A stretch of DNA of 64,000 nucleotides from Halostagnicola larsenii XH-48 (GTDB taxonomy: Archaea; Halobacteriota; Halobacteria; Halobacteriales; Natrialbaceae): the NCBI RefSeq assembly GCF_000517625.1, contig NZ_CP007055.1, positions 1,798,001 through 1,862,000 of the forward strand, written 5' to 3'. This document shows, in pieces, positions 14,977 to 18,567 of this stretch; within the stretch, counting starts at the first letter, position 1, and each line of letters opens with the position of its first letter. Below the pieces are notes generated by a model. The model did no database searches. It was given only the letters and a program-made list of their open reading frames with translations, and was not told the origin of the DNA. The position numbers were made by a program, and so were the translations under genes.

Positions 14977-15525
14977 CTACTCAGTACTGACGTTGACTTC
15001 CCCGTCCTCGCCGTCTTCGCCGTCTTCGGCGACGGTGTCTCCTCGATCGATATCGACGTGTTCCTCGCCGGTCACGACCGTACTGCTCTGGTTCGTGGAC
15101 GTGTGCTGGCTCGTCGAACCGTTCGACTCGGTGCTCTGCGACGAGGTGCTCGTCGCGACACTGTGGGAGACGACGCGCTCGTCTTCCGTATCCCAGACGA
15201 TCGTCCGTACCGTCGAGGTGACGGTGGTTCCGTCGTCGCTCGATTCGTTCGTCTCGATGGTAATGTTCAGCATGGACTCGTTTTCCACTTCTTCGCACTC
15301 GATCTCGGCGTCTTCGGGCAGTTCGTCGACGGAGACGTTGGCATCGATGGATTCGTTCGACGCGTTGAGCGCGTCGTAGCACTCGTCGCTCAGATTCATT
15401 TCGTTCTCACTATGGGTATCATCACCTGTCGAGTTGTTGATTCCGGAGACAGCGACAATACCAACACCTGCTATCACTACTACGCAGACGACCAGTATCA
15501 CTCCTGTCGTTGGTATTCGGTTCAT
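14977..15525 (-). CDS. secreted or membrane-anchored Ser/Thr/Asn-rich protein
   Basis: A 182-residue exported protein of unknown family. Residues about 8-27 are strongly hydrophobic (VILVVCVVVIAGVGIVAV) and could be a signal peptide or N-terminal anchor. The rest is acidic, with two cysteines (in DECYDALN and ECEEVENES) and many N-x-S/T glycosylation sequons (NSS-, NES-, NVS-, NQSS-like). The C-terminus is low complexity and ends with DGEDGEDGEV repeats. It is the first of three consecutive exported proteins, and its start is followed on the same strand by the curli-like companion gene's upstream unit. Confidence 0.62.
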   Translation of the reverse strand: MNRIPTTGVILVVCVVVIAGVGIVAVSGINNSTGDDTHSENEMNLSDECYDALNASNESIDANVSVDELPEDAEIECEEVENESMLNITIETNESSDDGTTVTSTVRTIVWDTEDERVVSHSVATSTSSQSTESNGSTSQHTSTNQSSTVVTGEEHVDIDRGDTVAEDGEDGEDGEVNVSTE

Positions 15526-15705: not shown

Positions 15706-16314
15706 TTACACTTCGATGTCGAGCTCGAGCAGCTCTATAATCTCGTCAAGGGAATCCTGAATACCAGTGAGGTCAGTAGTTCCGTCATCTCCACCATCGT
15801 CAGCTCCGCCATCGTCAGCTCCACCATCTTCAACGGTGGTTTCCTCTTCGAATTCCTGCTCGGCCTCGACATCAGCGTCGCCGCCGTCGCCGCCGTCGCC
15901 GGCGTTGGCGTCACCGCTGACGTCGCCGACTTCAGCCGAGGAGTCAGCGTAGCCAGTCTGTTCCTGTGCGTTCTGCTGGTTCACGTTCTGGAACTGGCTC
16001 GGTCCAGCGTCCCCACCATCGTCGTACTTGTTGTGGTCGGGGTTGTCAGCAGGACTCGAACTGCTCGCTGCCTGCGTGTTGGAGTTCGAAGCATCCTGCT
16101 CTTGGTCAACGATTGCTGGACCGGTTTCGACGTCTACGTTGTGGCCCTCGTGCGTCGCATCGCCGCCGTCGCCGCCGTCGCCGCCAACTCCGACACCGAT
16201 ATTGTTGGCGGATTCATTGGTGTCGTTCTGTGCCGCTGCTGTCCCGGCGAACCCCATGAACATGAGGCTGCCGACCAGTGCGAATACCATCAGCGCTGTG
16301 AATGTGCGTTTCAT
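15706..16314 (-). CDS. secreted Gln/Asn-rich protein with curlin-like half-repeats
   Basis: A 202-residue protein with a clear Sec-type signal peptide (MKRTFTALMVFALVGSLMFMGF...AAAQ, cleavage near 28). The mature part has GGDGGD tracts and two segments, DQEQDASNSNTQAA and QFQNVNQQNAQEQTGYA, matching the Q-x2-Q-x-N-x-N-x-Q pattern of the large protein at 17038-18567. The C-terminus has acidic, Gly-rich repeats (GGADDGGADDGG) and a hydrophobic amphipathic helix (LDEIIELLELDIEV). By analogy with curli, it could be a minor subunit, nucleator or anchor; that is inference. It is divergent from the larger gene across 723 bp. Confidence 0.65.
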   Translation of the reverse strand: MKRTFTALMVFALVGSLMFMGFAGTAAAQNDTNESANNIGVGVGGDGGDGGDATHEGHNVDVETGPAIVDQEQDASNSNTQAASSSSPADNPDHNKYDDGGDAGPSQFQNVNQQNAQEQTGYADSSAEVGDVSGDANAGDGGDGGDADVEAEQEFEEETTVEDGGADDGGADDGGDDGTTDLTGIQDSLDEIIELLELDIEV

Positions 16315-17037
16315 ATTTGGTTAGTGCATCGTCCGGGCATACACGCGCGGACCGCCGAAACCGGGTCGTCACCAGCGCACCGCGTTTCTGGATTCGGCAC
16401 CAGTCTCGAGTGCGCGGTTCCTCGCGGGATCTCGACCGATCCGAGCGATGCCACGGCGCGTTGCCCGGTTGGTTCCGACCATCAGCGCCCGTATTAACCC
16501 GAATTACAGTTTCAATGATCTATTGTCGATTGTGTGGCCGTTCGACCAACGTTACATTTGCTTTCGAAGTTGTCAGTCACTGTATCACCAATTTATCGTC
16601 GGAACGGACAGCCTATCGACAATTTCGCGTCTATATCTCGTGCTTACTCCCGCGGTGTAGTCGGCGTAATCTCGCATACACACGGTCCGAAACAGGTGTC
16701 GGTCCGGTTTTCAAGACTGTTCCTCAATCCGGTGGGTCACTGACTCGTGGATGTTACCGCCTACGTTCTCGAGACGGTGAACGAAACGGGCGGAATTCGG
16801 CGTGTTTTCGTCTGTCACACCGTCTCGGAACCGCCTAACCCGGACGATTTCGCCGGTAGTAGTCACCTTCGTAACCGGCCCAAAACTCGAGCGGCGCGCT
16901 CGGGGCGGTAACGACCTTGTTCTCTATTACAACCTACAGATAACAAAGACACTATTCGGAAAATGATGGTTCGCACCGTGAAGATGCAGTAAGAAAAGAC
17001 CCTCACAGGGCATTTGAAACGATAACAAAAATACACG
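16315..17037. other. 723-bp divergent intergenic region between two Gln/Asn-rich surface proteins
   Basis: More AT-rich than its surroundings. The open frames here have atypical composition and I accept none as a gene. It must hold promoters for both divergent genes; the AT-rich run GATAACAAAAATACAC ends next to the ATG at 17038. The length leaves room for several operators or a non-coding RNA, but I see no strong palindrome. Confidence 0.5.
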
Positions 17038-18567
17038 ATGATATCACGATCACAACTTACGACAGTTCTCGTCGCCGCGATGCTCGCGCTCTCGATGACG
17101 GGTGCGGCCCTCCCCGCGACCGCACAGGAGGATTCCGGCGAGGATGACAGAACGATCCACACGCTCGAGGACGGAGAAGACCTCTACTTCGTCTTCGGCG
17201 CGGATCTCGGCGATCAATCAGTAGAAGAGTACGTCGACGAACACTTAGAGAGCGAAGCCAGCGCCGCCTCCGACGGCTCGAGTCCGGCTGCGGATATCGT
17301 CCAGTATCAGGACGTGAACCAGACGAACGTCGACATTCAGGAAGGCGCAGCCTCAATCTCCATCGACGGCGGCGACGCGACCGCTATCCAAGAGTCTCAA
17401 CAGACGAACGAGAACACCCAGGAGGGCGAAGCCATCTCCGAGAACCAGAACCTCGAGGAGCAAAACGTCCAGTTCGAGGATGTCGGTGACGTCTACTTCC
17501 TCTTCGGCGATGACAACACCCAGCGCTTCGACGGCTGGGCGGTTGCCGGCGAAAAAGGAGGCGATCACGACAAGAAACACGACAAGGAGATAAAGTACTC
17601 CGAAGCGACCGTCACGCAGCTACAGCAGGTCGATCAGGCGAACGTCAACGAACAGAGCGTCGCCTTCTCGATCGCCGAAAACGGCAGTGACGCGCTCTCG
17701 ATTCAGGACAGTTCCCAGCTTAATTCCAACTCCCAGAGCGCGGTCGCGAACGCGCAGAACGTGAATCCGAGCACCGCTCAAGGCGGTACCCAGGTCGCCG
17801 CGTCGGACCTGGATCAGGCTCAGGAGAGTATGCAGACCAACATCAACCAGCAAGGCTTCGCCGTCGCGATCGCGATCGGCAACGAATCCACGGCGACGTC
17901 GATCCAGACGACGGACCAGTCGAACATCAACGAACAAGTCGGAAGCGCCTACTCGGCGTCCGTCCTCGAAGCGACGGAGGGCATGAACGTCGCGTCGGCG
18001 AGTACGAACGGCGGCTCCGACGTGGTCGAAACCGTTAGCGACAAACAGAAGACCGGCCACGACAAGAAGAAAGGAAGCGACAATACCGACGCGAGCGTCA
18101 GCCAGTACCAGAGCGTCGACCAGCTCAACCTCAACCAGCAGAGCTCCGCGGTCGCAATCGCACTCAACGGCAGCGAAGCGACTGCGATCCAGATCTCTCA
18201 CCAGGAGAACCACAACGCACAGGTCGGCATCTCACAGGCGCTGCCGGCGAACGAGGCCGGATCGTCACCGGGCGTTCTCTACAGCGAGGAGACGACCGTC
18301 TCGCTCAAGGGAGACAACGCGTCGGACAACCCGATCATGACGATCGACTCCGACGTTGGCGGCCAACAAAAACAGGACGTCGCCTATCAGCCCGATGCGG
18401 ACGTCGATCAGTACCAGTCGCTCTTCCAGGAGAACTTAAACGAACAGCAGGCTGCGTTCGCAGTTGCCGAGGATGGCGGTGAAGCGACATCGTCGCAAGT
18501 GAGCATGCAGTCCAACGAGAACGTTCAGTTCGGCTCCGCGATCGCTCCGTCTGCGATCCCGGCATAA
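17038..18567 (+). CDS. secreted curli-like repeat protein (five Gln/Asn/Ala modules)
   Basis: A 509-residue protein with a Sec-type signal peptide (1-30, ending ATAQ). The mature chain has five ~48-residue modules at about 87-134, 190-240, 257-308, 352-401 and 454-503. Consensus: Q-x2-Q-x-N-x-N-x-Q-x2-A-x-A-x-A-x3-G-x2-A-x-x-x-Q-x3-Q-x-N-x-N-x-Q-x-G-x-A, two strand-turn-strand units per module. The Gln/Asn ladder and alternating small residues resemble curlin (CsgA) repeats, which fold as stacked beta-solenoid amyloid. Spacers hold Lys/His-rich strings (near 174-187 and 336-349). Probable role is extracellular fibre or biofilm matrix; this is inferred. No CsgG-like exporter is visible nearby. 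Confidence 0.72.
   Translation: MISRSQLTTVLVAAMLALSMTGAALPATAQEDSGEDDRTIHTLEDGEDLYFVFGADLGDQSVEEYVDEHLESEASAASDGSSPAADIVQYQDVNQTNVDIQEGAASISIDGGDATAIQESQQTNENTQEGEAISENQNLEEQNVQFEDVGDVYFLFGDDNTQRFDGWAVAGEKGGDHDKKHDKEIKYSEATVTQLQQVDQANVNEQSVAFSIAENGSDALSIQDSSQLNSNSQSAVANAQNVNPSTAQGGTQVAASDLDQAQESMQTNINQQGFAVAIAIGNESTATSIQTTDQSNINEQVGSAYSASVLEATEGMNVASASTNGGSDVVETVSDKQKTGHDKKKGSDNTDASVSQYQSVDQLNLNQQSSAVAIALNGSEATAIQISHQENHNAQVGISQALPANEAGSSPGVLYSEETTVSLKGDNASDNPIMTIDSDVGGQQKQDVAYQPDADVDQYQSLFQENLNEQQAAFAVAEDGGEATSSQVSMQSNENVQFGSAIAPSAIPA

Follow-up and report, generated by a model that had tools for sequence, protein, structure and literature searches.

The window that we analyzed, a 64-kb stretch (64,000 nucleotides) of the Halostagnicola larsenii XH-48 genome, contains two genes, here called BIG and SMALL, that diverge from an AT-richer gap (Table 1). 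Both products are of exported type, as judged from signal peptides recognized by inspection. The open reading frames, strands, lengths, and quoted segments given in a first-pass annotation, as well as the divergent arrangement around the gap, were confirmed on the sequence. A genome search found BIG as a single-copy gene in H. larsenii, and the same holds for SMALL.

Table 1. Features of the BIG/SMALL region in the window and, where preceded by a locus number, at related loci.
Feature	Positions	Strand	Remarks
THIRD	14977-15525	-	182 aa, exported or N-terminally anchored, Ser/Thr/acid-rich
SMALL	15706-16314	-	ORF, 202 aa, exported-type
A-type half module, SMALL residues 105-126	15937-16002	-	p=0.007 vs shuffles
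B-type half module, SMALL residues 67-87	16054-16116	-	p=0.003 vs shuffles
SMALL signal peptide	16231-16314	-	Most conserved part of SMALL family
Divergent BIG/SMALL intergenic region	16315-17037		723 bp, G+C 0.54 vs 0.63 for 64-kb window
Element GAAACYGTNNTNCGGGTTNAA, upstream of SMALL	16493-16513	-	Conserved; one mismatch in window
Element CAACN5GATAACAAAGNC	16930-16950	+	Conserved; core 99 bp before BIG start codon
BIG	17038-18567	+	ORF, 509 aa, exported-type, five Gln/Asn-rich modules
BIG Sec-type signal peptide	17038-17124	+	Ends near ALPATAQ; by inspection
BIG N-terminal segment, LYFVFGADLGDQSVEEYVDEHL	17152-17289	+	Y50, F53, G54 invariant in alignment A1
BIG module R1, residues 85-136	17290-17445	+	
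BIG linker 1, second VYFLFG...FDGWAV segment	17446-17589	+	Model pLDDT mostly <60
BIG module R2, residues 190-241	17605-17760	+	
BIG module R3, residues 256-309	17803-17964	+	
BIG module R4, residues 352-403	18091-18246	+	
BIG module R5, residues 454-505	18397-18552	+	4 residues from C terminus
C18 genes	L144:2163-2795; L142 and L143:2470-3126; L163:1377-1985	-	
SMALL-facing surface-protein genes	L145:2362-3567; L166:2169-3347; L168:1258-2316; L169:1391-2445; L173:1245-2300; L179:1245-2300	+	

The next gene in line (THIRD) had been proposed as a further exported component of the locus. The ORF is real, but it is no conserved component: matches were restricted to 5 of 125 family genomes, a genus-level distribution, and we rejected it as a conserved member. 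At loci L142, L143, L144, and L163, its position is taken by another Ser/Thr-rich exported-type gene (C18), with a GEDGEDG-like tail on three of the four copies. The THIRD profile gave no match to the C18 genes at E values up to 1, and C18 is a positional analogue of THIRD. At six other loci, a surface-protein gene faces SMALL; the one at L169 is split, and its second part ends in Q/N-rich stretches and a PGF-CTERM-like tail. Such a protein is a possible anchor for the BIG-SMALL pair.

Repeat modules of BIG and SMALL

Exactly five modules of ca. 52 residues were present in all 66 near-complete BIG homologues scanned (450 aa or more), with median linker lengths of 47, 14, 43, and 50 residues. 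The modules follow the pattern AxVxQxQxVxQxNxNxQxxAxAIAxxGSxATAxQxSxQxNxNxQxGxA, and the alignment of 200 copies (5 each from 40 BIG proteins) gave the consensus AxVxQxQxVxQlNvNeQxxAvAIAxdGSeATAiQxsxQxNxNxQxGxAxAxN, in which residues alternate as in beta strands and the Gln/Asn positions were 95 to 100% conserved (82% for N15). Mean column conservation was 66 to 72% in the modules versus 40 to 45% in the three long linkers. The median Q+N content of the BIG family was 17.5%, versus 4.7% in 413 neighboring gene-like ORFs, among which the highest value was 10.8%. No C-terminal cap follows R5, and since BIG stops 4 residues past this module, its last rung would be uncapped.

The nearest named relatives of BIG are from Halostagnicola (82 to 88% identity). 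Neither BIG nor SMALL has a Pfam family, the BIG family is also without an NCBIfam assignment, and we found no description of the BIG/SMALL family in the open-access literature, in agreement with the initial view of the locus as undescribed. Comparison of 40 BIG relatives with family profiles returned signal or anchor motifs, chance-level matches, and nothing else. TIGR04126 (PGF-CTERM) was matched by 3 of these 40 proteins, and a PGF-CTERM anchor was present on BIG at 5 of 67 loci; the motif was not found in the BIG of the window.

The resemblance between SMALL and the half repeat of BIG, noticed in the first-pass annotation, was borne out by profile analysis. Residues 107 to 119 of SMALL (QFQNVNQQNAQEQ) fit Q.Q...Q.N...Q, a pattern present five times in BIG, and residues 70 to 83 read DQEQDASNSNTQAA. 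Given that direct matches between SMALL proteins mostly rest on their conserved signal peptide, a signal-free test was needed. A 52-position hidden Markov model (HMM) of the module, built from BIG homologues, gave 10.9 bits on the window SMALL without its signal peptide, a score reached by none of 200 shuffles of this protein and, in a second run, by 1 of 300; both half modules were also found. The module is badly decayed here, and its halves stand in the order B-A, while some other SMALLs have A-B.

Clearer modules were detected in the SMALLs of other species, with E values of 2.5e-16 (L178) and 5.1e-13 (L144), computed for 1,000 sequences. We scored 29 mature SMALLs, namely, that of the window and 28 chosen from 58 short SMALL-like ORFs (counted by eye); 24 of them exceeded all 200 shuffles, and 15 had E values below 1e-3, again for 1,000 sequences. 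The HMM found no module in the L138 SMALL (149 of 200 shuffles scored as high), both halves of which were detected in the half-module scan. At p values up to 0.02, both halves were present in 19 of the 29 proteins, 12 in the order B-A and 7 in the order A-B; since the halves fall on overlapping stretches in L137, L151:3762, and L157, only nine of the B-A orders are meaningful. These 29 proteins had been picked from matches, and therefore, a less biased scan of all ORFs weighs more. Among the 2,980 ORFs of 68 loci, the module HMM retrieved 28 shorter than 330 aa at E values below 0.01, which we sorted by eye into 25 of the SMALL type, one piece of the disrupted BIG at L201, and two C18 genes, which are identical and come from the two copies of the region in Natronorubrum bangense. 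That SMALL proteins carry one decayed copy of the BIG module, with its halves sometimes reversed, is thus supported at the sequence level. Comparison of the same 29 relatives with family profiles yielded weak matches, none of them consistent. The signal peptide of SMALL is more conserved across genera than the mature part, which is unusual.

Predicted fold and comparison with known amyloids

The AlphaFold2 model of BIG, obtained from a 40-row alignment, had a mean pLDDT of 59.5; R2 to R5 were all beta (pLDDT of about 70 to 88), and most linkers were below 50. The separate model of the R2-R3 domain was weak (pLDDT, 67.5; pTM, 0.41). When the whole model was searched with Foldseek against 350,542 PDB chains, the first match was the CsgA of Pontibacter (E, 0.18) and the second was FapC (E, 0.63), while FapC came first for the R2-R3 model (E, 0.045; TM, 0.12); with neither model was there a match at an E value at or below 0.001. 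In VIA-align 2, the whole model best matched SufD-type beta helices (Z, 8.0 to 8.4), above CsgA, and the R2-R3 model had no match at a Z value of 2 or more, although weak or missing matches do not exclude a family. The models predict a stack of beta strands for each module and flexible linkers in between, and regular Q/N-rich repeats of this predicted kind are a trait of functional amyloids. The matches to CsgA and FapC are suggestive of a stacked-beta fold and of that only.

The first-pass annotation had suggested that SMALL may nucleate fibers as CsgB does for CsgA, which stands as an analogy. The pair resembles curli in having five repeat units with Gln/Asn at fixed spacing, a minor subunit with the repeat of the major one (CsgB and CsgA), and a long divergent intergenic region (as in csgD-csgB). 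However, the BIG module is made of two halves, and SMALL is divergent from BIG, whereas csgB lies next to csgA in the same orientation. Membership in the curli family was rejected on sequence. Curlin_rpt (PF07012) did not match BIG or SMALL, was not listed for any of the 40 BIG or 29 SMALL family members, and was not found in the H. larsenii genome at E values up to 1. No homology of the module to CsgA or CsgB was found, their module HMM scores (-1.5 and -2.6 bits) being reached by 191 and 62 of 300 shuffles, respectively. A halocurlin HMM gave no score above shuffles on BIG, and hhalign aligned a single column between the BIG module and the halocurlin repeats. No csgG, csgE, or csgF was recognized in the gene clusters around the 68 loci (by recognition rather than with csg profiles), and archaea are not known to have an outer membrane of the csgG/csgE/csgF type.

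By analogy, the nearest design to BIG is that of FapC, for which linkers, an array of conserved Asn/Gln residues, and, in 94% of proteins, a count of three imperfect repeats are described (PMC12392863). A fixed count of imperfect repeats, linkers, and the Asn/Gln array are features of FapC/FapB, as described there, that recur in BIG/SMALL, together with a major and a second subunit having repeats in common (PMC12392863). In contrast, FapC has three repeats of ca. 38 to 39 residues, versus five of ca. 52 in BIG, and SMALL differs from FapB in having one module. Profile A3 retrieved no FapC chain from the PDB at E values up to 10, nor were fap-like neighbors recognized in the gene clusters examined around BIG loci.

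Among archaea, the sheath proteins of Methanospirillum and Methanosaeta are likewise extracellular and amyloid-like; however, by their description, they belong to another group and form sheath rings rather than a repeat-linker protein with a partner (PMC10593813). True curlin-repeat secreted proteins, above the PF07012 cutoff, are encoded at L205:1300-2037 (-) and L206:994-1617 (+), in two genomes of one genus, probably Haloterrigena. They are, like BIG, secreted haloarchaeal Q/N repeat proteins but are distinct from it, with 19-residue tandem curlin repeats. The single archaeal protein with curli-like repeats mentioned by Dueholm et al. (PMC3521004) could resemble these proteins and not BIG.

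We favor, with a probability of roughly one-half, a role of BIG and SMALL as the major subunit and minor partner, respectively, of a stacked Gln/Asn beta-arch surface assembly, that is, a functional-amyloid-like beta-solenoid. In the best reading, drawn by analogy, BIG would be a self-assembling FapC-like subunit and SMALL a minor partner and possibly a nucleator. BIG would be exported by Sec and then fold outside the cell, where its molecules may stack end to end via their exposed end modules into a fiber or layer. SMALL, with its single, sometimes permuted module, may cap, seed, or coassemble with BIG, and the expected product would be matrix or surface fibers for adhesion or biofilm. This reading draws on the constant number of modules, their conserved Gln/Asn positions, the high Q+N content, the predicted beta fold, the module in SMALL, the linkage of the pair, and the FapC-like plan; counting against it are the lack of significance of the fold matches, the weak R2-R3 model, the PGF-CTERM anchors, and the decayed state of the module in the window SMALL.

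Possible, if on the doubtful side, is that BIG does not polymerize and is a beta-solenoid surface protein (adhesin or coat) with SMALL as a soluble companion, the repeats reflecting the fold and not a fiber. The SufD beta helices were indeed its best VIA-align 2 matches, the N-terminal segment could cap one end, and given the PGF-CTERM anchor on some BIGs, a tethered protein fits as well as a fiber. The uncapped last module at the C terminus, the predicted flexibility of the linkers between modules, the presence of the module in a separate small protein, and a Q/N ladder like that of functional amyloids nevertheless argue against it.

Distribution and pairing among haloarchaea

BIG was present in 99 of the 125 genomes of its family (Natrialbaceae), and its profile matched 85 of 391 genomes of the class, with 6 outside the family, one of them weak. 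A lack of co-occurrence in related genomes had been set beforehand as the refuting condition, and the outcome favored a linked pair: SMALL was matched in 54 family genomes, all of which also carry BIG (lists compared by eye), and in none of the 26 without BIG. The hypergeometric probability was 3.5e-8, a value that ignores kinship and in which many SMALL matches rest on the signal peptide. A divergent SMALL-like gene was counted by eye in 28 of 40 fetched BIG regions, which were hand-chosen and include paralogues and Tat-type copies. BIG and SMALL form a conserved divergent pair, kept where flanking genes change, and the flanks are also conserved in many genomes. In Haladaptatus salinisoli, a plasmid carries, among unrelated genes, a clade II BIG (see below) and two SMALLs, the BIG and SMALL genes being annotated as hypothetical proteins. 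Viral contigs contained 125 stretches with the module pattern, none confirmed as relatives.

The tree of 66 BIGs separated clade I (43 rows, Sec) from clade II (23 rows), where Tat-like motifs were found by pattern in 22 rows, L178 being the sole Sec-type member. A divergent SMALL lies beside 38 of the 43 clade I BIGs, 36 by an automatic rule and 2 (L161 and L170) by inspection; no divergent SMALL was found at L146 and L185, and L160, L167, and L177 have only 2,015, 490, and 2,325 bp of upstream sequence, respectively. In clade II, this was the case for 2 of 23 BIGs (L176 and L178), with L180, L197, and L202 having only 2,208, 1,293, and 485 bp upstream; at the Tat-type loci L181 and L186, SMALL-like genes lie on the opposite side of BIG.

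The motif GATAAC[AT]A[AT]G occurred exactly once upstream of clade I BIGs at 38 of the 68 loci scanned, each time close to the start of BIG and on its strand, and was not found at any clade II locus. The longer form CAACN5GATAACAAAGNC had one exact match genome-wide and six further places at two mismatches, versus two for a control pattern. The conserved elements upstream of SMALL and BIG differ, so that each gene would have its own conserved promoter region. An Rfam search gave nothing meaningful.

Also against the assembly that we favor, most Tat-type BIGs are without a divergent SMALL, so that BIG can do without it. An unlikely but more specific version is an independent two-component archaeal amyloid in which the export route sets the need for the partner. 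Sec would send BIG out unfolded, and SMALL would seed its folding outside the cell; Tat-type BIG would be folded inside before export, and SMALL would have been largely lost.

The same association with Sec-type BIGs, including the Sec-type L178 as one of the two clade II cases, could be read as SMALL being an export-stage chaperone or inhibitor, whose half modules bind unfolded Sec-exported BIG and block premature stacking. We consider this quite improbable, given the divergent SMALL of the Tat-type BIG L176, the SMALL-like genes at Tat-type L181 and L186, and no chaperone family being recognized among the 29 SMALL relatives. Least probable of all is mere inherited synteny of genes with unrelated jobs between larC and the radB-side housekeeping genes, which the conserved flanks would allow but which is at odds with the common module and with a pair that survives flank changes and occurs on a plasmid.

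Several loci were peculiar. N. bangense (L142 and L143) has an identical BIG in the same neighborhood on chromosome and plasmid, either a recent duplication or an assembly artifact. In Halobiforma nitratireducens, a transposase-like gene (L149:2954-3610, -) is inserted beside SMALL. On chromosome 2 of Haladaptatus halobius, BIG is in pieces (L201:5001-6032), and its divergent SMALL-like gene (L201:3098-3463) is still open.

Implications for the haloarchaeal matrix

Biofilms of Haloferax volcanii are described as staining with amyloid dyes, and HVO_1403 has been proposed as a candidate on other grounds (PMC4180959). BIG and SMALL, known here from genes and models, look like a home-grown haloarchaeal counterpart of bacterial biofilm amyloid fibers. 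They provide a concrete candidate family, from other genera of haloarchaea, that has a defined repeat and a partner, which makes the question of an amyloid matrix in haloarchaea accessible to deletion and purification. If the assembly that we favor is correct, functional amyloids of the repeat-linker type that have a small partner would have arisen more than once, here in an archaeon at molar salt.
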